A stretch of DNA of 15,086 nucleotides, taken from Kiritimatiellota bacterium. Its GTDB lineage: Bacteria > Verrucomicrobiota > Kiritimatiellia > JAAZAB01. The DNA is taken from positions 1-15,086 of the forward strand of contig VSJD01000175.1 of the NCBI GenBank assembly GCA_008636095.1, read 5' to 3'. Made by a program: the position numbers and the translations under genes. The notes under the pieces were generated by a model. The model had not been told where the DNA came from, did no database searches, and was given only the letters and a program-made list of their open reading frames with translations. Shown in pieces: positions 3,167-15,078 of the stretch (the first letter of the stretch is position 1; the number at the start of each line of letters is the position of its first letter).

Positions 3167-3258
3167 ACCACGGATGGCACGGATATCACTGATATGAAAT
3201 GAGTTAACCCGGGACACACTGGTCTTTCTATCCGTGTCATCAGTGTCGGTAATGTGGT
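3167..3258. repeat. Dispersed palindromic element with CACGGAT units, copy A (trpC-trpF gap)
   Basis: The element begins ACCAC and ends GTGGT. Its left part repeats CACGGAT-like heptamers spaced every 9 nt, and its right part carries related sequence in inverted orientation, e.g. CACGGATA (left) against TATCCGTG (right). It shares an identical 20-nt core (3239-3258) with copy B at 14818-14837 in the same orientation. It fills most of the 170-nt trpC-trpF junction. Confidence 0.8.
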
Positions 3259-3262
3259 TGAT

Positions 3263-3278
3263 TTCTTTGGGTTGCGGG
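3263..3278 (-). repeat. 16-bp inverted repeat, copy 2 (partner at 2362-2377)
   Basis: Exact reverse complement of 2362-2377, directly beside copy A of the CACGGAT element and 11 nt before the trpC stop codon. Confidence 0.7.
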
Positions 3279-3289
3279 CAGATCTCGTG

Positions 3290-4090: not shown

Positions 4091-4106
4091 AAATGGAAAC
4101 TGCCCA

Positions 4107-4172
4107 AGTATGGGAGTATCGGCGTACGGGTGTGTGGGAGTACAGAGAAAACTCTTTACTTCCATACACCCA
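4107..4172. repeat. Octamer-array palindromic repeat, copy 1 (trpD-trpC gap)
   Basis: Five 8-nt units related to AGTATGGG run from 4107 to 4146, followed by a short spacer and a partly complementary segment (around 4158-4172). It matches copy 2 (5242-5313) unit by unit in the same orientation, so the pair forms direct repeats around trpD. The array is translated in the spurious 5' extension of the trpC frame. Confidence 0.8.
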
Positions 4173-5226: not shown

Positions 5227-5241
5227 GGTGTTCCTTCTCTA

Positions 5242-5313
5242 AGTATGGGAGTATGGATGTATGGGCGTGTGGGAGTATAGAGCAAATTCATTACTCCCAT
5301 ACCCCCTCCCACT
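5242..5313. repeat. Octamer-array palindromic repeat, copy 2 (trpG-trpD gap)
   Basis: Five AGTATGGG-like octamers occupy 5242-5281. An inverted segment follows: TACTCCCATAC (5292-5302) is the exact complement of 5243-5253. The RNA can fold into a hairpin between the trpG stop and the trpD SD. Same family and orientation as 4107-4172. Confidence 0.85.
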
Positions 5314-5317
5314 CTTT

Positions 5318-5896
5318 TCAATGCTGCCCCGCGGCCAACTCCAGAAAGTTGCGAAGCAAGTGCTTACCGGACGGTGTCAGGATTGATTCCGGATGAAACT
5401 GGACGCCGTAGGTTGCGTGCCGGCTGTGGCGCAGGCCCATGATTTCATTGTCCTCGCTGTTGGCCTCGATCACCAGTTCCGGGGGCAGGCCTGCGCGCAT
5501 AATGGCCAGGGAATGATACCGCCCGGCCACAAAGGGGTTCTTGAGCCCTTGATACAGCCCCTTGCCGGTGTGATGGATGAGCGACGTTTTGCCGTGCATG
5601 ATTTGCTGGGCGCCGGCCACCCGTGCGCCGAAGGCCGCACCGATGGCCTGGTGGCCCAGGCATACGCCCAGGAGCGGGACAGTGCCGGACAGCCGGCGGA
5701 TTAATGCCACGGAAATGCCGGCTTTCTCGGGCGTGCAGGGGCCGGGCGAGATAATCACAGCCTGTGGATGCAAATTGACCACGGCATCCACCGTCACAGT
5801 GTCGTTGCGGAATACCTGGATTTCGGCGCCCAGCGCGCCGAGCGCATGCACCAGGTTGTAGGTGAACGAATCGTAATTATCAATTAGGATGATCAT
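5318..5896 (-). CDS. trpG: Anthranilate synthase component II (glutamine amidotransferase)
   Basis: Class I glutamine amidotransferase subunit that supplies ammonia to TrpE. The product has 192 residues, typical of stand-alone TrpG/PabA. The nucleophile is Cys79 in GVCLGHQ, with His168 and Glu170 in QFHPES completing the triad; the oxyanion strand SPGPCTP is at 50-56. This type of subunit often also serves p-aminobenzoate synthesis, and no separate pabA is visible here. Its ATG overlaps the stop of the upstream S23-like gene as ATGA (5896-5893), and no clear SD precedes it, so translation probably depends on reinitiation after that inserted gene. Confidence 0.96.
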   Translation of the reverse strand: MIILIDNYDSFTYNLVHALGALGAEIQVFRNDTVTVDAVVNLHPQAVIISPGPCTPEKAGISVALIRRLSGTVPLLGVCLGHQAIGAAFGARVAGAQQIMHGKTSLIHHTGKGLYQGLKNPFVAGRYHSLAIMRAGLPPELVIEANSEDNEIMGLRHSRHATYGVQFHPESILTPSGKHLLRNFLELAAGQH

Positions 5897-6357
5897 AAGG
5901 AATGGTTAATGGTTGATGGTAGATGGTTAATGGAAGAAGCCGGCGAAGCGTTCATGGGTTTGGATTTTCCATGTAATAGGATTTTTCGTTCAATGCTCGT
6001 AATTAAATTGCCCAGCTGATGAAGAGCATCTTCATATCCAGCGAACAGTGTTTCGTCACCGACTGTCAGTAGATGCGTGTCTTTGGCATAGTTAAGATGA
6101 GTCAATGTTTCGCGCGCTTCGCGGCGGCAGCGATGCAAAGATTGTAAATATTCCGTGCTGTATTGAGAATAAAAACCCTCAGTCATGTTGGCGCATGCCG
6201 ATTCCGATGCCCTCAATAATTGGCTCCGTAACCACTTAAAATCTGGCCGGAATGGGCGGCTCATCATTTCGATCTTCAGCGCCAGTTCATAAAATAGCCG
6301 ATACACCGGCATATCCTCAACATTTTCGATATGTTTCTTTTCCATGCTGCGTCTCAT
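5893..6357 (-). CDS. Four-helix-bundle protein (23S rRNA intervening-sequence / S23 family), inserted in trp operon
   Basis: 154 residues from the ATG at 6357; an in-frame ATG at 6345 (MEKKHIENVEDMPVY) is also plausible, and neither has a good SD. The sequence is helical with no membrane segment. It carries the S23/Avd-like pattern LLRASESACANMTEGF followed by CRREARETLTHLNYA, which aligns with the second S23-like protein in this window (VRSSGSVAANYIEAN / CRKEAKESRLWL). The family is known from ORFs in 23S rRNA intervening sequences and from the Avd accessory proteins of diversity-generating retroelements, which bind nucleic acid. It has no known role in tryptophan synthesis. The last 12 or so residues (INHLPSTINHSL) are encoded by the left terminal repeat, and its TGA overlaps the trpG ATG. 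Confidence 0.88.
   Translation of the reverse strand: MRRSMEKKHIENVEDMPVYRLFYELALKIEMMSRPFRPDFKWLRSQLLRASESACANMTEGFYSQYSTEYLQSLHRCRREARETLTHLNYAKDTHLLTVGDETLFAGYEDALHQLGNLITSIERKILLHGKSKPMNASPASSINHLPSTINHSL
5901..5934 (+). repeat. Left terminal inverted repeat of S23 cassette 1
   Basis: About five imperfect units of ATGGTTA. Complement of 6385-6418 at 28 of 34 positions. It lies inside the 3' end of the S23-like gene. Confidence 0.85.
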
Positions 6358-6384
6358 TGCTCATCAATCATTCTTATCTTCGAT

Positions 6385-6418
6385 TCCATTAACCATTGAC
6401 CATTTCCCATCAACCATT
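6385..6418 (-). repeat. Right terminal inverted repeat of S23 cassette 1
   Basis: Same heptamer family as 5901-5934 in inverted orientation. It overlaps the last 9 bases of trpE, including the TGA stop. Confidence 0.85.
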
Positions 6419-7876
6419 CTCTTCCAATCGGAGTCCGTTGGCGGCCAAGGCTACCGCGTTTTGCATGCCGCGCGCCTTGTGACAGGTCTCCTCGAATTCC
6501 TTTTGCGGGTCGGAATTGTAGACGACGCCGCCGCCGGCCTGGATGGCGATGGTGCCGTCGGCGATTTCCAGGGTGCGGATCGTGATGGCAAAATCCATGC
6601 TGCCGTCGTAGCTGATGTAGCCCAACGCACCGCCGTAGGCCCCGCGCGGTTCGCTCTCCAGCTCGTGGATGATTTCCATGGCACGGATTTTGGGCGCGCC
6701 CGACAGTGTGCCGGCGGGAAAGGTGGCGCGGATAACATCGGTGGCGTCACAGCCCTGGCGCAGAATGGCTTCGACATGCGAGACAATATGCATGACGTGG
6801 CTGTAACGTTCGATCGTCATGTATTCGCGCACTTGCACGCTGCCGGTTTCGGCCACGCGTCCAAGATCGTTGCGGCCCAGGTCCACCAGCATAATGTGCT
6901 CGGCCTTTTCCTTGTCGTCGGAGAGGAGATCGTCAGCCAGTTGGCGGTCCTCCTGTTCGGTGGCGCCGCGCGGGCGCGTGCCGGCGATAGGCCGCAGTTC
7001 CACGCGGTTGCCCGTGAGCCGCACCATGACCTCCGGTGAAGAGCCCACCAGGGCCTGGTCGCCGATCTTAAGGAAATAAAGGTAGGGCGAGGGGTTCAGC
7101 AGGCGCAGGGCGCGGTACAACTGGAAGGGCGGCACTTCCGAGTTGGCGCTGAACCGCTGACTTGGGACCACCTGAATGATATCCCCGGCAACAATGTAAT
7201 CCTTGGCTTTGCGGACGATGGCCTGGTACTGGGCGCTCGTCATATTGGAGGTAAACGTTACCGGCGGATAAACGCGATTTTCGGTGTGCGGCGCCGGTTG
7301 CTGGAGGATTGTCTCGATGGCCGCGATTTTCCGGCAGGCGGCCTCGTAGGCCTGTGTCGGTGTAGCACCGCCCGCTTGGGCGGCGGGGCGGGAGCAGACG
7401 ATGATCTTGATCGTGTTGCGCAGGTTGTCGAACACGATCAGGTTATCCACTTTCAGGAAGCGGCTGATCGGCCGGCTCCCGCCACGGACCAGCTTTGGTG
7501 TTGGCAGGCGTTCGAACTCGCGGACGGCCTCGTAGCCGATGTAACCCACGGCTCCGCCGAAAAAGCGAGGCAGGCCCGGCATGGGGGCCGCGCGCACACC
7601 CTGGTACACGGGCCGCAGGCGCCGGAGCAATTGCGGATCCGTAACATCGGTGTGTTCGATTTCGAACAAAAGCTCAGGCTCGACGCCAATGAAGGAATAG
7701 CGGCCCCAGGTTTCGCCGCCCTCGATACTTTCGAGCAGGAACACGTTCGGGTTATCCACGAAGCGCCGGAGCACGGAGACCGGCGTTTCGAGATCGGCCA
7801 GCACTTCCTTGCAGACCGGGATCAGGTCGTATTTCTCGGCCAGCGCGAGGTAGTCCTGTAAGGTTGTGTGTTGCAT
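6410..7876 (-). CDS. trpE: Anthranilate synthase component I
   Basis: Converts chorismate to anthranilate with TrpG-supplied ammonia; first committed and feedback-controlled enzyme of the pathway. The product has 488 residues. The N-terminal tryptophan-binding motif LLES (47-50) is present, so feedback inhibition is expected. The chorismate-binding domain shows IAGTRPRG (297-304), DLGRNDLGRVAE (332-343), FPAGTLSGAPK (386-396), and the C-terminal IQAGGGVVYNSDP with EFEETCHKA. It is first in the operon. The ATG at 7876 has no SD and lies only 8 nt from a -10 box, so the mRNA is probably leaderless. Its stop codon falls inside the terminal repeat of the S23 cassette, which probably supplies its last codons. 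Confidence 0.98.
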   Translation of the reverse strand: MQHTTLQDYLALAEKYDLIPVCKEVLADLETPVSVLRRFVDNPNVFLLESIEGGETWGRYSFIGVEPELLFEIEHTDVTDPQLLRRLRPVYQGVRAAPMPGLPRFFGGAVGYIGYEAVREFERLPTPKLVRGGSRPISRFLKVDNLIVFDNLRNTIKIIVCSRPAAQAGGATPTQAYEAACRKIAAIETILQQPAPHTENRVYPPVTFTSNMTSAQYQAIVRKAKDYIVAGDIIQVVPSQRFSANSEVPPFQLYRALRLLNPSPYLYFLKIGDQALVGSSPEVMVRLTGNRVELRPIAGTRPRGATEQEDRQLADDLLSDDKEKAEHIMLVDLGRNDLGRVAETGSVQVREYMTIERYSHVMHIVSHVEAILRQGCDATDVIRATFPAGTLSGAPKIRAMEIIHELESEPRGAYGGALGYISYDGSMDFAITIRTLEIADGTIAIQAGGGVVYNSDPQKEFEETCHKARGMQNAVALAANGLRLEENG

Positions 7877-7879
7877 GGT

Positions 7880-7897
7880 GTTTCTATATATAGAAAC
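7880..7897. promoter_or_regulatory. Perfect 18-bp palindrome over the trpE -10 box, probable operator
   Basis: GTTTCTATATATAGAAAC reads the same on both strands. It covers the -10 hexamer and ends 3 nt before the trpE ATG, an ideal site for a dimeric repressor to block RNA polymerase. It does not resemble the E. coli TrpR operator as I remember it. The repressor is unknown and not encoded in the window. Confidence 0.7.
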
Positions 7898-7913
7898 AGC
7901 TGGGCGCTGTCAA
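7885..7913 (-). promoter_or_regulatory. trp operon promoter
   Basis: On the minus strand, TTGACA (7913-7908) and TATATA (7890-7885) are separated by exactly 17 nt: a full consensus -35 and a near-consensus -10. An A/T-tract resembling an UP element (7936-7914) lies immediately upstream of the -35. Transcription should begin about 7 nt after the -10, at or within a few bases of the trpE ATG. There is therefore no room for a leader peptide, attenuator, T-box or TRAP site. Confidence 0.8.
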
Positions 7914-7949
7914 TAGAAAAAACATTTTTTTTTGTTCGTGCATTTTGCA

Positions 7950-7977
7950 TTGCGCCGCCGGCGGGCGATTCTATACT
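7950..7977 (+). promoter_or_regulatory. Possible promoter for the DUF167 gene
   Basis: TTGCGC (7950-7955), a 16-nt spacer and TATACT (7972-7977). The -10 is good and the -35 is poor. It is divergent from the trp promoter and would give a ~110-nt leader containing repeat hairpins. Confidence 0.3.
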
Positions 7978-8084
7978 GGCCTTCGCCCTTCTTCGCCAGA
8001 AAGCCCGGTAGCTTGCCACAGGGAGGAATGGCGTTCTTGGCTTCGCAGGGTTTCGCAAAGATACCCCGCGGCTTGCCGCGGGGT
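7976..8084. repeat. Compound REP-like repeat upstream of the DUF167 gene
   Basis: Several inverted motifs follow each other. The clearest is a perfect 9-bp stem, ACCCCGCGG / CCGCGGGGT (8063-8071 and 8076-8084), around a CTTG loop. A second unit near 8005-8025 has the same plan, with CCC and GGG around GCTTGCC. The region looks like an intergenic dispersed repeat rather than coding sequence. Confidence 0.65.
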
Positions 8085-8092
8085 GCTTCACC

Positions 8093-8380
8093 ATGAATTG
8101 GATTACGGCAACCAAAACCGGTGTGATGCTGTCCGTGCACGCCTGCCCGCGTGCCGCGCAGGATCAAGTGCAGGGCCTGCACGGGGATGCCGTCAAGATC
8201 CGCCTGCGGGCGCCGCCGGCGGATGGTAAGGCCAACGATGCGTTGATCGTCTTTCTCAGCCGGATACTGGATGTGCCCGCGCGCCACTTGATTATTGTGG
8301 CCGGGCACAGCGCGCGCCGCAAACGCGTGGCCATTGCCGGAGTAACTGCGGCGGTTGTGCAGGCCAAGCTGGGTCTATAA
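8093..8380 (+). CDS. DUF167 / YggU family protein
   Basis: A 95-residue protein with the DUF167 signature: LHGDAVKIRLRAPPADGKANDALIVF-type core (residues ~29-54) followed by GHSARRKRVAIAG near residue 74. Small basic cytoplasmic proteins of this family are widespread and their function is not established. The ATG at 8093 lies 8 nt after a very stable GC hairpin and has no SD, so translation is probably weak or depends on refolding. Divergent from trpE; the next gene downstream is on the opposite strand, so it appears monocistronic. Confidence 0.92.
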   Translation: MNWITATKTGVMLSVHACPRAAQDQVQGLHGDAVKIRLRAPPADGKANDALIVFLSRILDVPARHLIIVAGHSARRKRVAIAGVTAAVVQAKLGL

Positions 8381-8589
8381 CCCACAACCAAAGCAAACAT
8401 CAACTTGTCCGCCATAGCTTTAGCGACGGTGGAACATCCAGCCCTCCTACGCCCGAGCGCTTCGAAGGGCAAGTTATCGAATGCCCAACGTCGAATGACG
8501 GAATAAGAACAAAGAATACCAGCAACCTTTGCATTTGGCGAAAACAGGCAATCTTGGCTTGCCAAGCGTGGTTTGCGGGCAAGCCCGTA
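8381..8589. other. Intergenic stretch with repeat remnants
   Basis: 209 nt with no credible gene, between the convergent DUF167 and nuclease genes. It holds small perfect hairpins (CTTGG/CCAAG near 8554-8567; CGGGC/GCCCG near 8577-8588), an imperfect CCGCC/GGTGG hairpin near 8409-8433, and a degenerate heptamer array at 8475-8495. The hairpin nearest the nuclease stop could end transcription, but no U-tract follows on either strand. Confidence 0.5.
8475..8495 (-). repeat. Degenerate TTCGACG-type heptamer array
   Basis: On the minus strand three 7-nt units read TTCGACG, TTGGGCA and TTCGATA, related to the five-unit array at 13528-13562. Short, so possibly chance. Confidence 0.4.
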
Positions 8590-9630
8590 TCAGGCCAATT
8601 CCAGTTCGCTTTTGCAAAGTTCGTAAAACCGGCATTGCCGGCAGGTATCGAGATCGGCGGATTGTTCCCAGTCCTCCTGCGGCAGGGGCTGGTTCCTGCG
8701 GATGTCGCCTGCCACGAGGTATTCGGCCATTGTTGCGACCGATTCACGGATTAACCCGCGGGCGTGTTCCAGATCGTGATTGGTCAAGACCATGCTCTGG
8801 GTGGCGCCCTTCGAAAGGTATTCCAGGTGCACCTGGATGCGCTCGGGTGGGAGGGCGTGTTTGATGTGGGCCCATAGGCCGTAAATGGTCATCTGGTCCC
8901 GGTGCGCCGGTTTCTCACTGCCCGCCTTCCAGTCGTGGATGTGCAGGAGGTCCTCTGCGCGATAGGCGTAATCCGGGATGGCATACACCTTGACGGACTC
9001 AAACAGGAACGATTCGGGGTCGCCGCCATCCGCGTGGGCGATGCTAACTTCCTGCTCCGGGCGCACGGACCCCAAGCGCGGCAGGACCTGCTCCAGAAAA
9101 TTAGCCAGGCAGCGCTTGATCTGCTCGATCATGCGCGCGGTCATATCCGCCTCGGGCGTGTGGTGATGCGCGGGGTAGTAATGTTCATGCAGGCAGCAGT
9201 GTTTTTTGGGATTGGCCTGCCATAGTTTCTTTTTGGACTCATTCCAGCATTGATTCAGGTAAGGCTTGGCGACCGTTTCATAGGCTTGGGCCGCGGTAAC
9301 CGGCTTGCCCGCCTGGGCGGAATGCTCCGCCTGCGCGGAATGCTCCGCCTGCGCGGAATGCTCCGCCTGCGCGGAATGCTCCGCCTGCGCGGACTGCTCC
9401 GCCTGCGTCTGCCGGAGCGCCCACATGATGGCGCGTTCCACGGCATTGCCCTGGAGCGTGAACCGGTTTTCCATTTTACCCAGCCGGTAGGCCGTGCGGG
9501 CCAGGTTCGGGGCATCCGCCTTCCACCCGCCCCACATGGCGTACTTGGCCAGGTACCGGCGGCGCGGGCATTCTTCAAAGTCCGCCCGCGCGGAAATAGA
9601 CCAGGAAAAGGTGTTGATTAGTTCGGCCAT
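8590..9630 (-). CDS. RecB/Cas4-like PD-(D/E)XK nuclease family protein with probable Fe-S cluster
   Basis: 346 residues from the ATG at 9630 (MAELINTFSWS). The frame is open further upstream, but that part overlaps the DUF1016 gene and lacks family features. The nuclease motif is PDYAYR (Asp220) followed by HIHDWKAG (Asp233 and Lys235), then a QMTIYGLWA helix, as in PDDEXK_1/Cas4/RecB-C domains. One N-terminal cysteine (C21, ECPRRRY) and three C-terminal ones (C330, C333, C339) match the 4Fe-4S arrangement of Cas4/AddB. Residues ~77-107 are five near-perfect copies of a hexapeptide (SAQAEH) that interrupt the fold. It follows the DUF1016 gene by 40 nt on the same strand, so it is probably co-transcribed. 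The exact substrate is unknown; DNA repair or defence is possible. Confidence 0.85.
   Translation of the reverse strand: MAELINTFSWSISARADFEECPRRRYLAKYAMWGGWKADAPNLARTAYRLGKMENRFTLQGNAVERAIMWALRQTQAEQSAQAEHSAQAEHSAQAEHSAQAEHSAQAGKPVTAAQAYETVAKPYLNQCWNESKKKLWQANPKKHCCLHEHYYPAHHHTPEADMTARMIEQIKRCLANFLEQVLPRLGSVRPEQEVSIAHADGGDPESFLFESVKVYAIPDYAYRAEDLLHIHDWKAGSEKPAHRDQMTIYGLWAHIKHALPPERIQVHLEYLSKGATQSMVLTNHDLEHARGLIRESVATMAEYLVAGDIRRNQPLPQEDWEQSADLDTCRQCRFYELCKSELELA
9311..9400 (-). repeat. 18-bp tandem repeat, five copies, inside the nuclease gene
   Basis: Five contiguous 18-nt units (9311, 9329, 9347, 9365, 9383) plus a partial sixth. The three inner units are identical; the first and fifth each differ by one base. 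Each encodes one SAQAEH-type hexapeptide, so copy number can change without a frameshift. Confidence 0.95.
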
Positions 9631-9670
9631 AGCATTTATCCGGAAGTCATGAATCCTGATAAACCGACAA

Positions 9671-10798
9671 TCATGATTGCGCCTCCATTTCCTTCTCAAT
9701 CTCTTTGACCGTCGGCAGGCTGCCTTTGAATTCTTTGGGCAGCGCCTTGACGATTTTCGTTTCCCATTGGGCCACGCCGATGGGCTTCTTGACATCGCGA
9801 AGCGCATATTCGACAACAATTTTGTCCTTGGATCGACATAGTAATAAACCAATGGTCGGCTTGTCGTCGGGATGGCGGAGAAGATCATCCGCCGCCGAAA
9901 GATACATGTTCATTTGTCCGGCGAAACCCGGTTCGAACGGAACAGCTTTCAGTTCCACGACTACGTAGCAGCGCAGTTTGACGTGGTAAAATAAAAGGTC
10001 GAGATAGAAGTCTTTTGATCCCACTTCCAGATGCACCTGCCGGCCCATGAAGGCGAATCCCGCGCCGAGTTCCAACAGGAAACGTTGGATGTGTCCCATC
10101 AGAGCGTGCTCGACCTCGCGTTCCCGGCGGGGATCGGCTGTGCCGAGGAAGTCGAACAGGTACGGGTCTTTGAATATCTGCCCCGCCATGTCCGAATCGG
10201 CTGGCGGCAACGTAGCCGGGAAATTGTTAATGGCTTTGCCCAGACGTTTGTGGGCACAGCCGTCAATCTGCAGACAGAGAATGGGTTGAGACCAGCCGTG
10301 CTCCACTGTTTTCCGCGCATACCAGAGGCGAATATCAGGTTCTTTCAATTTCTCCATCAGGGCCAGATTATGGTACCAAGTGATTTGTGCAAGCGGCCCT
10401 TGCACAATTGCCCGATTCGGCCAAGTGGCGGCAAAGGCGCGCATGTACTTCAAATTGCGCGGCGAAAGACCTTGCATATCTGGAAAGGCGTCCCGTAGGT
10501 CGAAGGAGAGGCGATCAATGACCTTTGTGCCCCAACCCTCGGATGCTTGCCGTTTCAGAATGATCTGCCCGATTTCCCAGTATGCCAGGATCATCGCGGC
10601 GTTTGCGGAAAGCACCGTCTTGATCCGGCTCTCTTGTATCCGTTTCTTGAGGTCGGCCAGCGTGGCGGCGTAGTCAGGCGGTAATTCCGCAACCATTGCC
10701 GGGACCGTGAACCGGGCTTCATCTCGCGCGCGTCCCAGAGCGCGGCGTGATCCTGCGTTTAGCCGGACAAGGGCTATCGCATTCCGCTTAGACTTCAT
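9671..10798 (-). CDS. DUF1016 / YhcG family PD-(D/E)XK nuclease-like protein
   Basis: 375 residues. The N-terminal DUF1016_N domain (from ~residue 35) shows YWEIGQII (73-80), GLSPRNLKYMRAFA (110-123) and GWSQPILCLQID (168-179). The C-terminal YhcG domain has the nuclease core LDLLFYH (Asp267) and VVVELK (Glu282, Lys284), then the FEPGFAGQMNMYLSAAD helix. These residues look intact. The ATG at 10798 has AAGG 7 nt upstream; the first ~34 basic residues precede the usual domain start, and M35 (10696) is an alternative without an SD. DUF1016 proteins are often met near restriction-modification and other defence genes, but their activity is poorly defined. First gene of a two-gene unit with the nuclease at 8590-9630. 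Confidence 0.92.
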   Translation of the reverse strand: MKSKRNAIALVRLNAGSRRALGRARDEARFTVPAMVAELPPDYAATLADLKKRIQESRIKTVLSANAAMILAYWEIGQIILKRQASEGWGTKVIDRLSFDLRDAFPDMQGLSPRNLKYMRAFAATWPNRAIVQGPLAQITWYHNLALMEKLKEPDIRLWYARKTVEHGWSQPILCLQIDGCAHKRLGKAINNFPATLPPADSDMAGQIFKDPYLFDFLGTADPRREREVEHALMGHIQRFLLELGAGFAFMGRQVHLEVGSKDFYLDLLFYHVKLRCYVVVELKAVPFEPGFAGQMNMYLSAADDLLRHPDDKPTIGLLLCRSKDKIVVEYALRDVKKPIGVAQWETKIVKALPKEFKGSLPTVKEIEKEMEAQS

Positions 10799-11105
10799 AA
10801 CCCAGCCTTTTCAAATTCGCTCGCATCCCCAGCTTGGCCCGTTACACATATCCATTCTTGCTGGGTTCAGCATAATGCTGGACTATGCGCTTAAGCAAGC
10901 CTATTTCAAGGCGCCGGAAATCTGTAAATATTTTTCTTCTTCTCCATGGTCTTTGCGGGTATAAAAGATCAGAAATGCCGCCAGAATGCGCGGGGGATAA
11001 AGGAGCAAGATTAAAAATATGGTCATAGCCGGTATAAAACCGGCTCTACAAATATGATGCATAAGGTAGAGCCGACTTTACGTCGGCTATTTTCAGGGGA
11101 GCAAC
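10799..11105. other. Divergent intergenic region between DUF1016 gene and lpxI
   Basis: 307 nt without a credible gene. It contains a short palindrome, CAGCAT/ATGCTG, at 10868-10880, AT-rich sequence near 10920-10945, and the double hairpin at 11025-11090. Promoters for both divergent genes should lie here, but I see no convincing -35/-10 pair. Confidence 0.5.
11025..11090. repeat. Double-hairpin palindromic repeat upstream of lpxI
   Basis: Two perfect 7-bp hairpins with 5-nt loops: AGCCGGT/ACCGGCT (11027-11045) and AGCCGAC/GTCGGCT (11070-11088). The two halves are also complementary to each other as larger arms (11025-11049 against 11066-11090), so two alternative folds are possible. It ends about 2 nt before the lpxI SD region. 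Confidence 0.8.
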
Positions 11106-11987
11106 ATGAATCAGGCGATACCGGAAAAACTGGGAATCATTGCCGGGCGCGGCGCGTATCCGCGGCTACTGGCGGAAGGTGCCAGGAAACAGGGCGTGCG
11201 GCAGGTGGTGGCCGTGGCGTTTCGCGGGGAAACCGATCCGCGAATCGAAAAGGCGGCTGATCACGTCGTATGGCTGCGCGTCGGCCAATTAGAGGCCATG
11301 CTGGAAGCCTTTCGTCGGCATGGAATCGCCCAGGCGGTTATGGCCGGTCAGATTGCGCCCTCGAATCTTTTTAATATCCGCCTGGATGTCCGCGCGCTGA
11401 CTATCCTGGCCCGGCTAAAGAACCGCAACGCCCAAACCATTTTCGGTGCCATTGGGGATGAACTTCATGCCATGGGGGTCGAACTCCTGCCGGCCTACCG
11501 GTTCATGGAGGACACCATGCCGGCGCCGGGCTTGCTCAGCCGCCGCGCGCCGACCGAGCGCGAGCGCCTGGACATCGAGCTGGGTCTCCAGGCGGCCAAG
11601 GCCACCAGCGCCCTGGAAATCGGGCAGACGGTTGTGGTCAAGGAAGGCGTGATCCTGGCGGTAGAGGCCTTTGAGGGTACGGACGAGACCATGCTGCGCG
11701 CCGGGAAGCTGGGGGGCGCCGGCGCCGTGGTGGTGAAGGTTGCGCGGCAGGGCCACGACATGCGCTACGACATTCCCGTGGTCGGCTTGCGCACCATGGC
11801 GGTGCTGAAAAAAATCAAGGCCGCCGTGCTGGCCGTGGAAGCGCACCGGACCATCTTGCTGGAACGGGAACAAATCATTGAAGGAGCTGACAAACAAAAT
11901 TTGGCATTCATAGCGGTGGAAGTGGAAAATAAAATAAATTCCAAGTTCCAAGTTCCAAATTCCAAGGAAGTTTCAAATTCCAATTAA
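11106..11987 (+). CDS. lpxI: UDP-2,3-diacylglucosamine diphosphatase LpxI (DUF1009)
   Basis: Hydrolyses UDP-2,3-diacylglucosamine to lipid X (2,3-diacylglucosamine 1-phosphate) and UMP, the step before LpxB in lipid A synthesis; the alternative to LpxH. 293 residues. The N-terminal LGIIAGRGAYPRLLAEGARKQ and VVAVAFRGETDP (9-45), VGQL and AVMAGQI (59-83) belong to the N-domain. VVKEGVILAVEAFEGTD (177-193) and MRYDIPVVG (219-227) belong to the C-domain; Asp222 probably corresponds to the essential Asp of Caulobacter LpxI. The ATG is preceded by a GGGGAG SD. The last ~16 residues (278-293) are encoded by the heptamer repeat of S23 cassette 2 and are not part of the family fold. Confidence 0.95.
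   Translation: MNQAIPEKLGIIAGRGAYPRLLAEGARKQGVRQVVAVAFRGETDPRIEKAADHVVWLRVGQLEAMLEAFRRHGIAQAVMAGQIAPSNLFNIRLDVRALTILARLKNRNAQTIFGAIGDELHAMGVELLPAYRFMEDTMPAPGLLSRRAPTERERLDIELGLQAAKATSALEIGQTVVVKEGVILAVEAFEGTDETMLRAGKLGGAGAVVVKVARQGHDMRYDIPVVGLRTMAVLKKIKAAVLAVEAHRTILLEREQIIEGADKQNLAFIAVEVENKINSKFQVPNSKEVSNSN
11936..11969 (+). repeat. Left terminal inverted repeat of S23 cassette 2
   Basis: Imperfect TTCCAAG units lying inside the 3' end of lpxI. Complement of 12404-12437 at 32 of 34 positions. Confidence 0.9.
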
Positions 11988-12004
11988 GAAACAAAGACAA
12001 CAAG

Positions 12005-12373
12005 ATGACAACGGAAAATACCAGGCCACAGGCTTTGGACGAGCGCACATTTCTATTTGCTCAGAATGTGCGCATGTTTGTTACTCAATTGCCGAAAACC
12101 GCGAGCAATCAAGAAGACATTAAACAGGTTGTCCGCTCATCCGGTTCAGTCGCGGCCAATTACATTGAAGCCAACGAGGCGCTCAGCAAGAAAGATTTTA
12201 TCCTGCGCATGAAAATATGCCGCAAAGAAGCCAAGGAAAGCCGTCTATGGCTCCGTTTGCTCAATTGCGGCGAACATGATCAATTAGGCAAGAAGAGTTT
12301 AACTCTTATTCAGGAAGCCACGGAATTAATGCTCATTTTTAACGCCATCATTACCAAGAGCGGTTTGACTTAG
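12005..12373 (+). CDS. Four-helix-bundle protein (23S rRNA intervening-sequence / S23 family), inserted in lpx cluster
   Basis: 122 residues, the usual size for the family, helical throughout, without signal peptide or membrane segment. The S23 signature is clear: DIKQVVRSSGSVAANYIEAN, then a helix with CRKEAKESRLWLRLL. It is clearly divergent from the S23-like protein at 5893-6357, so the two are not a recent duplication. Family members occur in 23S rRNA intervening sequences and as the Avd subunit of diversity-generating retroelements. No 23S rRNA, reverse transcriptase or variable repeat is present here. The ATG lies 17 nt after the lpxI stop with no strong SD. It lies between the arms of cassette 2 and is oriented with the lpx genes. 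Confidence 0.93.
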   Translation: MTTENTRPQALDERTFLFAQNVRMFVTQLPKTASNQEDIKQVVRSSGSVAANYIEANEALSKKDFILRMKICRKEAKESRLWLRLLNCGEHDQLGKKSLTLIQEATELMLIFNAIITKSGLT

Positions 12374-12403
12374 GCGATTGTTTTGTTTGAAATTTGATTT
12401 GGT

Positions 12404-12437
12404 TTCCTTGGAATTTGGAATCTGGAACTTGGAATTT
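12404..12437 (-). repeat. Right terminal inverted repeat of S23 cassette 2
   Basis: Same TTCCAAG heptamer family as 11936-11969, inverted. It lies immediately upstream of the oxidoreductase SD. Confidence 0.9.
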
Positions 12438-12453: not shown

Positions 12454-13476
12454 ATGAGCGATCATAAAGTCCGTGTTGGCGTGGTGGGCGTCGGCAGTCT
12501 CGGCCAGTGGCATGCCCGTATTTATTCGGAATTGCCGGCGGCCGAGTTGGTCGGGGTGTATGACATCAATCAGGCGCGGGCCGAAGAGATTGCCCGGCGC
12601 TATCGGACGCGGGCCATCCGGGACATGGCCGAATTGGCCGGCATGGTCGAGGCGGCCAGTATCGTGGTGCCGGCGGACAAGCATTTCGAAGCGGCCGCGC
12701 ATTTTCTCGAGCGCGGTGTGCACCTCCTGGTGGAAAAACCAATTGCCACCCGTACGGCCGATGCCGAGGCCATGGTAACCTCCGCCCAGCAGAAGAACCT
12801 CGTCCTGCAGGTGGGGCACGTCGAGCGGTTTAATCCCGTGCTGAAATTCCTGGAAGGCATCCTGGTGCGGCCGCGGTTCATCGAGGCCCACCGGTTACAG
12901 CCCTATCCGCCCGCGCGCGCGGGCCAGTCCCCGCGCGGGACGGAGGTCAGCGTGGTGCTGGATCTCATGATCCATGATCTGGAAATCATCCTGCACCTGG
13001 TGCGCTCGCCGGTGCGCGAGTTTCATGCCGTGGGCGTGCCGGTCCTGAGCCCCAGCGAGGATATCGCCAATGTGCGCCTCGAGTTCGAAAACGGTTGTGT
13101 GGCCAACGTGACCACCAGCCGGATCAGCCCGGAACATTTGCGTAAAATCCGCGTGTTCCAGGAGGATGCGTACATCTCGCTGGATTACGAAAAGCAGTCC
13201 GGGGAAATCTACCGCAAGACCCAGTCGCGCATTGAGCGGAGCAAGGTGCCGATCGAGAAAGGCGAACCGCTGAAAAACGAATTGACGGCGTTTGTCGAAT
13301 GCGTGCAAACGCGCGGCGCGCCGGTCGTCAGCGGCGAACAGGCGGCGGAAGCGTTGAAGCTGGCCGCAGCCATCTGCCGCCAGATCCGGAATTCGGATAG
13401 ACGCCAGACGCCAGACGCCGGCCTGCCCACCGTAGCCCCTGGGGCGAAGGCGGGACGCCAGCCTGGAGAGGAATAA
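12454..13476 (+). CDS. Gfo/Idh/MocA family NAD(P)-dependent oxidoreductase, lipid A cluster
   Basis: 340 residues from the ATG at 12454, chosen because GGAGGGG stands 5 nt before it; the frame is open from 12394, but those codons are cassette-2 repeat. Rossmann domain with GVVGVGSLGQWHA (9-21), the family EKP motif (94-96), VGHVERFNP (120-128) and the catalytic-region LMIHDLEI (171-178). Family members oxidise or reduce sugar hydroxyls. Placed between lpxI and lpxB, a UDP-GlcNAc 3-dehydrogenase (GnnA-like) role in making 3-amino-sugar lipid A precursors is possible, but no GnnB-type aminotransferase is in the window. The last ~25 residues (from ~315, RRQTPDAG onward) are low-complexity and encoded by a heptamer/REP-like repeat. 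Confidence 0.9.
   Translation: MSDHKVRVGVVGVGSLGQWHARIYSELPAAELVGVYDINQARAEEIARRYRTRAIRDMAELAGMVEAASIVVPADKHFEAAAHFLERGVHLLVEKPIATRTADAEAMVTSAQQKNLVLQVGHVERFNPVLKFLEGILVRPRFIEAHRLQPYPPARAGQSPRGTEVSVVLDLMIHDLEIILHLVRSPVREFHAVGVPVLSPSEDIANVRLEFENGCVANVTTSRISPEHLRKIRVFQEDAYISLDYEKQSGEIYRKTQSRIERSKVPIEKGEPLKNELTAFVECVQTRGAPVVSGEQAAEALKLAAAICRQIRNSDRRQTPDAGLPTVAPGAKAGRQPGEE
13399..13445 (+). repeat. AGACGCC heptamer array plus GC hairpin at the 3' end of the oxidoreductase gene
   Basis: Three exact tandem AGACGCC units (13399-13419), then a near-perfect GCCCC/GGGGC inverted repeat centred at 13440. All of it is translated as the C-terminal tail of the oxidoreductase. Confidence 0.75.
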
Positions 13477-13527
13477 AGCAAACGCCGGACTCGCGAAGCG
13501 TGTGGCAAGTATCCATGTGTTTTTTCA

Positions 13528-13562
13528 TTCGACGTTCGGCGTTCGATGTTGGATGTTCGATG
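13528..13562 (+). repeat. Five-unit heptamer array just upstream of lpxB
   Basis: Five 7-nt units related to TTCGATG, 35 nt in all, ending 18 nt before the lpxB ATG. Same period and near-identical length as the terminal repeats of the S23 cassettes but a different unit. No S23-like gene lies beside it. Confidence 0.8.
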
Positions 13563-13580
13563 TTTTCTTAAATAATATTC

Positions 13581-14714: not shown

Positions 14715-15078
14715 ATACTCAGATGCCTGCATAATTGCAAAGAGGAGATAACCACGGATCACACGGATGGCACGGATAGGGGAAGATGGAGATGTTTTCC
14801 TTGATCACATCCGTGAAATCAGTGTCGGTAATGTGGTCTCTTGGGTTCAAAAAAGAGTGGAAAAAATGGAACCAAGGGAGCATCGTATACGGCCAGTGGG
14901 TGAAAGTGAAAACACTCACTGGGGCGACACGGGAGACGCTCGAGGATTGCAATGGAGTTGCTCTCCGATTCAGTGTCTGAGCGCCGGCGGACATCACCCA
15001 CGTGGGGCTAAACACCCCGTATGCCTGTATGTAACGTGGCCGCCTGCTCCCGATGGTTCCGGTGAAAAGGAAAGCAAA
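14715..15078. other. Intergenic region after lpxB
   Basis: 364 nt. The first part holds copy B of the CACGGAT element. The rest has no feature I recognise. A 64-codon frame (14786-14980) starts inside the repeat, has no SD and matches nothing I know, so I do not call it. No clear terminator follows lpxB; the palindromic element may serve. Confidence 0.5.
14751..14837. repeat. Dispersed palindromic element with CACGGAT units, copy B
   Basis: Begins ACCAC and ends GTGGT. Three CACGGAT units spaced exactly 9 nt apart on the left, and inverted related sequence on the right. Shares a 20-nt identical core (14818-14837) with copy A at 3239-3258. Confidence 0.8.

Follow-up and report, generated by a model that had tools for sequence, protein, structure and literature searches.

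What is a short cassette, made of one small gene between two inverted arrays of a heptamer, doing between consecutive genes of a bacterial operon? The question is raised by a stretch of 15,086 nucleotides from a Kiritimatiellota bacterium (assembly GCA_008636095.1, contig VSJD01000175.1), hereafter the window, which is the whole stretch analyzed and which carries two such cassettes, each with a gene of the S23 family. A preliminary description had suggested that each S23 subfamily is paired with its own repeat, as the REP-associated tyrosine transposases (RAYTs) are with repetitive extragenic palindromic (REP) sequences, and that the protein might bind this repeat either as DNA or as an RNA hairpin. 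Using comparisons between genomes we show that the arms belong with the S23 family and that hairpins with cognate arms but no S23 gene occur in large numbers; we also show that some genomes and plasmids have the arm-to-arm stretch at a junction where others lack it or have something else in its place. On balance we consider it rather probable that each cassette is a copy of an S23 mobile element of about 0.4-0.55 kb, consisting of heptamer array, S23 gene and inverted array and lying at a stop/start junction of an operon. That S23 drives the movement is a step that we infer.

Two S23 cassettes at operon junctions

Both cassettes proved to be real, each with one gene for an S23/IVP four-helix-bundle protein (PF05635) between inverted arrays of 7-nt units (5900-6419 and 11936-12437). 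Their parts, followed by the host genes, are:

6384..6419, minus strand: upstream arm of S23-1, unit ATGGTTA/ATGGTCA in gene sense, holding the trpE stop codon
5893..6345, minus strand: S23-1 gene, four-helix-bundle protein (PF05635), alternative start at 6357
5900..5935, minus strand: downstream arm of S23-1, inverted, 7-periodic
11936..11969, plus strand: upstream arm of S23-2, unit TTCCAAG/TTCCAAA, within the lpxI reading frame
12005..12373, plus strand: S23-2 gene, four-helix-bundle protein (PF05635)
12404..12437, plus strand: downstream arm of S23-2, inverted, 7-periodic
6410..7876, minus strand: trpE, upstream host gene of S23-1 (family match)
5318..5896, minus strand: trpG, downstream host gene of S23-1 (family match; junctions compared between genomes)
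11106..11987, plus strand: lpxI-like gene, upstream host gene of S23-2 (family match)
12454..13476, plus strand: Gfo/Idh-type dehydrogenase gene, downstream of S23-2 (family match; junctions compared between genomes)

The common design that had been described was borne out, with arm-to-arm spans of 520 and 502 bp, arms of 36 and 34 nt, and a period of 7 in four of four arms (Tandem Repeats Finder). The arms of S23-1 (5900-5935/6384-6419) are complementary at 83% over 36 nt and those of S23-2 (11936-11969/12404-12437) at 94% over 34 nt; their scores are 22.8 and 29.6, and for 1276 shifted control windows the 99% point is 15.4 and the 99.9% point 21.2. The sense orientation with the host genes and the location at the 3' end of the upstream gene also hold: the gene orders are trpE/S23-1/trpG and lpxI/S23-2/Gfo-Idh, all sense, the trpE stop lies in an arm, and the lpxI frame runs through one. 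The S23-1 reading frame crosses its downstream arm and overlaps the trpG start. The two proteins are as divergent as had been noted (19% identity). Both cassettes have an S23 open reading frame between inverted-repeat ends, as in the intervening sequence of 23S rRNA; they lie outside rRNA genes, and a search of the window with Rfam at gathering scores gave no match.

Against PF05635 (cut-off 33.8) S23-1 scores 50.0 bits (E 3.9e-13) and S23-2 42.8 bits (E 6.6e-11), and against TIGR02436 (cut-off 24) they score 52.1 and 64.3 bits. An AlphaFold2 model of S23-2 has four helices, with a predicted local distance difference test (pLDDT) value of 90.2, and is matched by Foldseek to 2rld (E 3.1e-5), 2gsc (E 3.7e-3) and the Avd structure 4dwl (E 2.6e-2), and more weakly to reverse-transcriptase complexes of diversity-generating retroelements; 2rld and 2gsc have five chains in each deposition. 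The bAvd family (PF22296) is also matched by 17 of 22 canonical S23 proteins scanned, and a search of PHROGs gave no match. A resemblance of PF05635 to Avd has been described (PMC10053308), and Xanthomonas S23p is a homopentamer, as cited in PMC4990558. The ratio of nonsynonymous to synonymous substitution rates (dN/dS) is 0.03-0.17 in those 12 of 15 S23 pairs that have dS above 0.1, the other three being too close to judge; these sequence comparisons indicate that S23 is under purifying selection.

The window's genome (G000, 3.8 Mb) has 12 matches to PF05635, 10 of them above the Pfam cut-off, and inverted heptamer arrays surround nine of the 12. Units vary from gene to gene, except that loci L002 and L003, whose proteins are related, have AGAGGTC-type units in common. 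The S23 genes without arms (L005, L011 and L012) resemble other subfamilies. An armless S23 subfamily comprises L005, L026, L029 and L047, whose DNA is 78-91% alike in five listed pairs; the gene beside S23 in L005 is presumably cas4.

Arms, repeat units and protein families

S23 loci were gathered by S23 searches and by searches for relatives of both window proteins, and hence are not a random sample. After 20 of 318 hits had been left out (duplicates or domains below 60 residues) the collection held 298 distinct S23 genes at 289 loci, from the window's genus, family, class and phylum together with 80 named loci from many phyla. For each gene the search for arms reached 300 nt upstream and 450 nt downstream, and the best-matching pair was scored, with the 99% point of same-shape windows shifted along the same loci as threshold. 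Arms exceeded this threshold in 208 of the 298 genes, as against 13 of the 1276 controls, and the 99.9% point in 118 genes, as against two controls; they are present at 58 of 92 genes of the named loci and at 150 of the remaining 206. Of the 208 armed elements, 169 have their strongest lag at 7 and 25 at 8; arm length has 10, 25, 50, 75 and 90% percentiles of 24, 28, 33, 38 and 49 nt, and the median inner distance is 432.

The proposed pairing of repeat family with protein family is supported by a comparison of 160 elements with period 7 (48 of the 208 armed elements were dropped for another period or weak periodicity). In pairs without homologous reading frames in their flanks, unit similarity rises with the identity of the S23 proteins: 0.399 below 25% identity (3642 pairs), 0.462 at 40-50% (1852 pairs), 0.501 at 50-60% (385 pairs), 0.642 at 60-80% (127 pairs) and 0.742 at 80% or more (11 pairs). 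Permuting the arms gives about 0.432, and none of 500 permutations reached the values of the four classes from 40% identity up. In the named genomes alone the association is present at 40-60% protein identity (0 of 400 permutations), and none is seen there below 40%.

If arms evolved with their locus the pairing would be spurious; units do not follow flanks, and it survives. Unlike S23 genes in the same flank have a unit similarity of 0.403 (108 pairs), whereas alike S23 genes in different flanks reach 0.650 (138 pairs), and therefore the arms travel with the S23 gene. By the same comparison, in which any homologous open reading frame within 1.2 kb makes a flank related and paralogous operons therefore count, the locus was rejected as source of the association; GC composition was likewise rejected, a partial correlation of 0.30 remaining (permuted standard deviation 0.023).

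What stands of the idea that each protein has its own repeat is a core of few fixed positions per clade, and not one fixed heptamer per protein. Five of the six closest armed relatives of S23-1 (60-94% identity) have ATGGTTA-type units and one has ATGGGGA; the next relative (46%) has no arms above threshold. These six occupy several junctions (L034, L135, L136 and L137-L139), which from their reading frames we take to be trpE/trpG again in L034, a carrier of redox centres in L136, and an ABC permease/ATPase pair in L137-L139. Most relatives of S23-2 (39-68%) have units that share a core (ATTCTAA, ATCCGAA, ACGCCAA and ATCCCAA, for example), with exceptions, and in the largest clade an AG core is common to loci of Ruminococcus, Planctomycetales, Chloroploca and Ramlibacter, among others.

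Occupied junctions, empty junctions and hairpins without a gene

In 21 pairs of copies the DNA is at least 75% identical and this identity is confined to the element region, a filter having dropped pairs with homology far into the flanks. Sixteen pairs are armed, and in these the match stops within the arms or at their edge, overrunning the outer edge by no more than 14 nt (for example L042, L004 and L033, 88-92% alike in two genera; L030/L027; L288/L060; L272/L059; L336/L312); the other five belong to an armless subfamily. Together with junctions compared between plasmids, these pairs show that the terminal inverted repeats bound the mobile unit.

Of the genomes compared in the window's genus, G000 and G002 have both elements. 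The trpE/trpG junction of G001, G003 and G004 has short arm-like stretches, which are scars or older arrays, and at the lpxI/Gfo-Idh junction G003 retains the last S23 codons and one arm, G001 has the arms but lacks S23, and the junction of G004 is clean. For L004, too, an empty site was sought in the genus, with no match outside G000.

Cyanobacterial plasmids offer cleaner cases. Ten S23 loci among 42 matching records were examined, two of the ten being one duplicated region; nine have arms above threshold, and the tenth scores 15.0. The cleanest empty site concerns an insert of about 410-430 bp, flanked on both sides by GTAAT, which is present in Trichormus (L312) and Scytonema (L328) and lacking in Nostoc carneum (L326) and Microchaete (L327) on plasmids that are about 97% identical. 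Less clean comparisons are L318/L333 with L330/L331, where the corresponding junction of L332 has arms and no S23, and L309/L310 with L320, L321, L322, L324 and L325. A clean duplication at a second plasmid site was sought and rejected, the junctions of L310, L318, L313 and L335 having diverged or containing another insert.

Several single loci add to this picture of junctions with changing contents. In L323 the junction filled by an S23 element in L310 has an unrelated gene and the next junction an antisense S23-2-like gene, and therefore the L310/L323 region is an insertion hot spot. In L039 the first element is followed by another arm and by the beginning of another S23 copy, which makes these tandem elements. 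According to record annotation, S23 elements L313, L315, L316 and L335 are hosted by cyanobacterial defence operons, at cas6/cas4, cas2/cas1, drmD/pglX and cas10/cmr3.

Arrays of both window types are also dispersed without the gene. The ATGGTYR-type pattern ATGGTYRATGGTYRATGG, with at most one mismatch allowed, has 141 matches in G000, 57 in G002, 30 in G001, 58 in G003 and 33 in G004, and the TTCCAAR-type pattern TTCCAARTTCCAARTTCC has 17, 80, 7, 1 and 17, respectively, with 0-1 matches for reversed-pattern controls. The arrays form inverted doublets able to fold into hairpins, as do the REP doublets (REPINs) associated with RAYTs: G002 has 13 convergent pairs (60-200 bp) among 44 arrays, and in G000 the first 100 of the 141 matches listed, which make up 65 arrays, give 12 such pairs (below 300 bp), with no divergent pair in either. 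Forty regions (20 of each type) were fetched, mostly from places with both array strands. A hairpin is present in 18 of the 20 TTCCAAR regions, the remaining two stopping at a contig end; 17 of these hairpins are 138-174 bp long with an arm layout like that of S23-2 and a mean pairwise identity of 78%, and represent a family of about 145 bp in a sister genome. In the ATGGTYR set 12 of 20 regions have an ATGG hairpin, and the loop of one (L429) looks by eye like a piece of the S23-1 gene. Reading frames of at least 60 residues in the 40 regions gave no S23 match, a search that would miss remnants in shorter frames.

Close to these hairpins, CCCGCAACCCAAAG or close variants often lie just outside gene-less TTCCAA hairpins (L399, L409, L413 and L414; in the window at 2358-2377 and 3263-3282), possibly as a target preference. 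The window itself has, at 3167-3258 and 14751-14837, two similar inverted repeats of about 90 nt with CACGGAT-type units, a 9-nt period and no gene, which are gene-less hairpins at other junctions. Two inserts that are 83% alike (4106-4171 and 5241-5306), with GTATGGGA-type units, adjoin the genes that come next in the same trp operon; they have an 8-nt period, detected at 5242-5278, and are like the 8-nt arms of S23 elements L058 and L076 from other genomes. A solo TTCGATG-type array just before lpxB (13525-13564) has the unit of the G000 S23 element L008.

Elsewhere in the window, a minus-strand gene for a PD-(D/E)XK nuclease-like protein has 5.5 copies of an 18-nt repeat at 9309-9407 (97% match), and a YhcG/DUF1016 nuclease-domain gene stands amid biosynthetic genes at 9671-10798. 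In the G000 assembly many contigs have a length of exactly 10,000 bases, as though they had been cut.

Rival readings, a possible mechanism and known systems

Several observations weigh against the view that the cassettes are mobile elements worked by S23. Arms above threshold are missing at 90 of the 298 S23 genes; only one site shows an apparent target-site duplication; the heptamer scars that G001, G003 and G004 have at trpE/trpG may be older than the element and not what is left of it; and no movement was observed as such. When loops of the TTCCAAR hairpins were compared with the inner ends of S23-2, only 10 of 17 beat all 100 shuffles. G004, with its TTCCAAR-type matches, has no S23-2 relative at E 1e-5, and G003, with its ATGGTYR-type matches, no S23-1 relative at E 1e-9. 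In Pfam at E 0.001 the two window proteins match PF05635 alone, with no catalytic or transposase domain, and 22 further S23 proteins match PF05635 and bAvd only, with no RAYT-type transposase. Finally, the orientation of the elements is biased: in 185 of the 208 armed elements (23 dropped for short flanks) both neighbors are sense in 125, both antisense in 15 and mixed in 45, which could also reflect a role at the RNA level.

Such a role would make the cassettes RNA-level elements like the intervening sequences of 23S rRNA, with arms that pair in the operon mRNA, RNase III cutting the stem, and S23 binding, protecting or aiding excision. The Coxiella element indeed has the same protein family and layout, being 428 nt long with an RNase III-cut inverted-repeat stem of 28 bp and GACAGAT heptamers before the S23 frame (PMC4990558). 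The sense bias fits this account, as does the likeness of arms within an element: at 60-80% protein identity and in unrelated flanks, arms of one element match at 24.0 and same-side arms of sister elements at 15.5 (160 of 176 pairs), in elements that were pre-selected for matching arms. The difference is gone at 80% identity or more (24.3 versus 23.7; 9 of 15 pairs) and in pairs with similar flanks (23.9 versus 23.8; 31 pairs), and the likeness could come from pairing of the ends or from one arm being copied from the other. Nor do the mismatches point to an RNA hairpin, which, if the pairing were at the RNA level, should show G-U in excess of A-C. In sense RNA, G-U and A-C mismatches number 259 and 257, and at stricter score thresholds 179 and 198, and 82 and 84 in the best arms. 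With no G-U excess at any of the three thresholds, selection on an RNA hairpin, a mechanism raised at the outset, finds no support in these counts, and recognition of the ends as DNA is therefore favored. Antisense copies also occur (e.g. L311 and L315), and we regard the RNA-level account as unlikely.

We judge about equally unlikely the possibility that S23 is a passenger, the heptamer-ended hairpin being moved by an unrelated transposase encoded elsewhere. The want of a catalytic domain in S23 would suit a passenger; so would G003 and G004, because of whose arrays without cognate S23 it must be granted that arrays and S23 gene can part. A passenger, however, would not be expected to have unit families that track S23 families at unrelated loci and across phyla, nor strong purifying selection between its copies.

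A third account takes S23 for a resident regulator and the arms for binding sites that control the host operon, by self-regulation or polarity, and that spread by ordinary recombination. A stop codon does closely precede the element in 186 of 208 cases (median 7 nt) and a start codon closely follows it in 190 of 208 (median 17 nt), and the S23 genes of both loci are conserved between G000 and G002. Against this, junctions in G001, G003 and G004 are empty or decayed although the host genes stay, host genes elsewhere are unrelated, and many hairpins are S23-less, which leaves this account very improbable. Chance, or simple-sequence slippage beside unrelated genes, can create short tandem units but is refuted by the excess of arms over controls, as also by inverted placement around one gene family and by array pairs that are convergent and never divergent, so that its probability is negligible.

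On the favored reading of the cassettes as S23 mobile elements, the S23 homopentamer would bind its own heptamer array in DNA, perhaps with one subunit per heptamer because five units make an arm of about 34 nt; the product of five subunits and seven nt is close to that length, which is suggestive only, given an arm-length spread of 24-49 nt (10-90%). S23 would then bring the two element ends together, with a cutting or copying activity recruited from elsewhere, and might serve its own element in cis and the gene-less hairpins in trans. Sense copies may prevail because the element borrows the transcription of the host operon. One may go further and see here a transposable-element class of its own, in which a pentameric protein of about 120 residues without a nuclease domain reads a 7- or 8-nt code in the tandem arrays of both ends and moves both itself and gene-less hairpins; this we put forward tentatively, at somewhat less than an even chance. 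Were it true, there would be one array unit per subunit, the chemistry would be borrowed from the host or from a reverse transcriptase, 23S rRNA intervening sequences would be copies that had inserted into rRNA genes, and element debris would account for many of the bacterial heptamer repeats called regulatory. If S23 moves the element, transposition would be led by a protein without a known catalytic domain. Short of this, the S23 family is tied to a specific DNA signal that is predictable clade by clade, which gives it a testable role and may unite rRNA intervening sequences, intergenic heptamer repeats and the S23 genes scattered in operons, including CRISPR and DISARM operons.

Heptamers are also known from the STRR repeats of cyanobacteria and from the heptanucleotides of tRNA-Leu introns. 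Tandem TAACTGA units near gene starts of Beggiatoaceae, present also in cyanobacteria and Bacteroidetes, are, unlike S23 arms, direct repeats in the published description, which suggests a regulatory role for them, and the main text of that report does not contain the terms S23, intervening or helix bundle (PMC4679880). The open-licence literature, to which our search was confined (subscription papers lay outside its scope), yielded no paper that could be seen to connect S23 genes with heptamer-ended elements outside rRNA. Among known elements, the 23S rRNA intervening sequences of Coxiella, Leptospira and others share the protein family and the single S23 frame; their mobility was already proposed by Ralph and McClelland in 1993 (cited in PMC4990558), and the available text of PMC4990558 handles the Coxiella heptamers as local repeats of the rRNA element. 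The window elements differ from them in lying at junctions of protein genes, in having many families per genome, in arms built from heptamer arrays that match the S23 clade, and in the existence of S23-less hairpins. Avd of the diversity-generating retroelements (bAvd, PF22296; 4dwl, 8ub7) has the same fold as S23. Miniature inverted-repeat transposable elements, which are short and non-autonomous, retain the ends of a parent insertion sequence that has the gene; S23-less copies likewise keep the ends, but the gene-bearing copy has no known transposase and an apparent target duplication is seen at one site only.

By analogy, the nearest system in logic is that of REPIN and RAYT (PMC3116915), with a dispersed protein family, an inverted repeat of its own for each member, and gene-less hairpins in the form of inverted doublets. 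The S23 elements differ from it in a protein without a transposase domain match, in ends made of 7-nt tandem arrays and in the position of the gene between these ends. The comparison, first drawn from the two cassettes of the window, is strengthened by the S23-less hairpins with cognate arms and by the match of repeat class to protein class.

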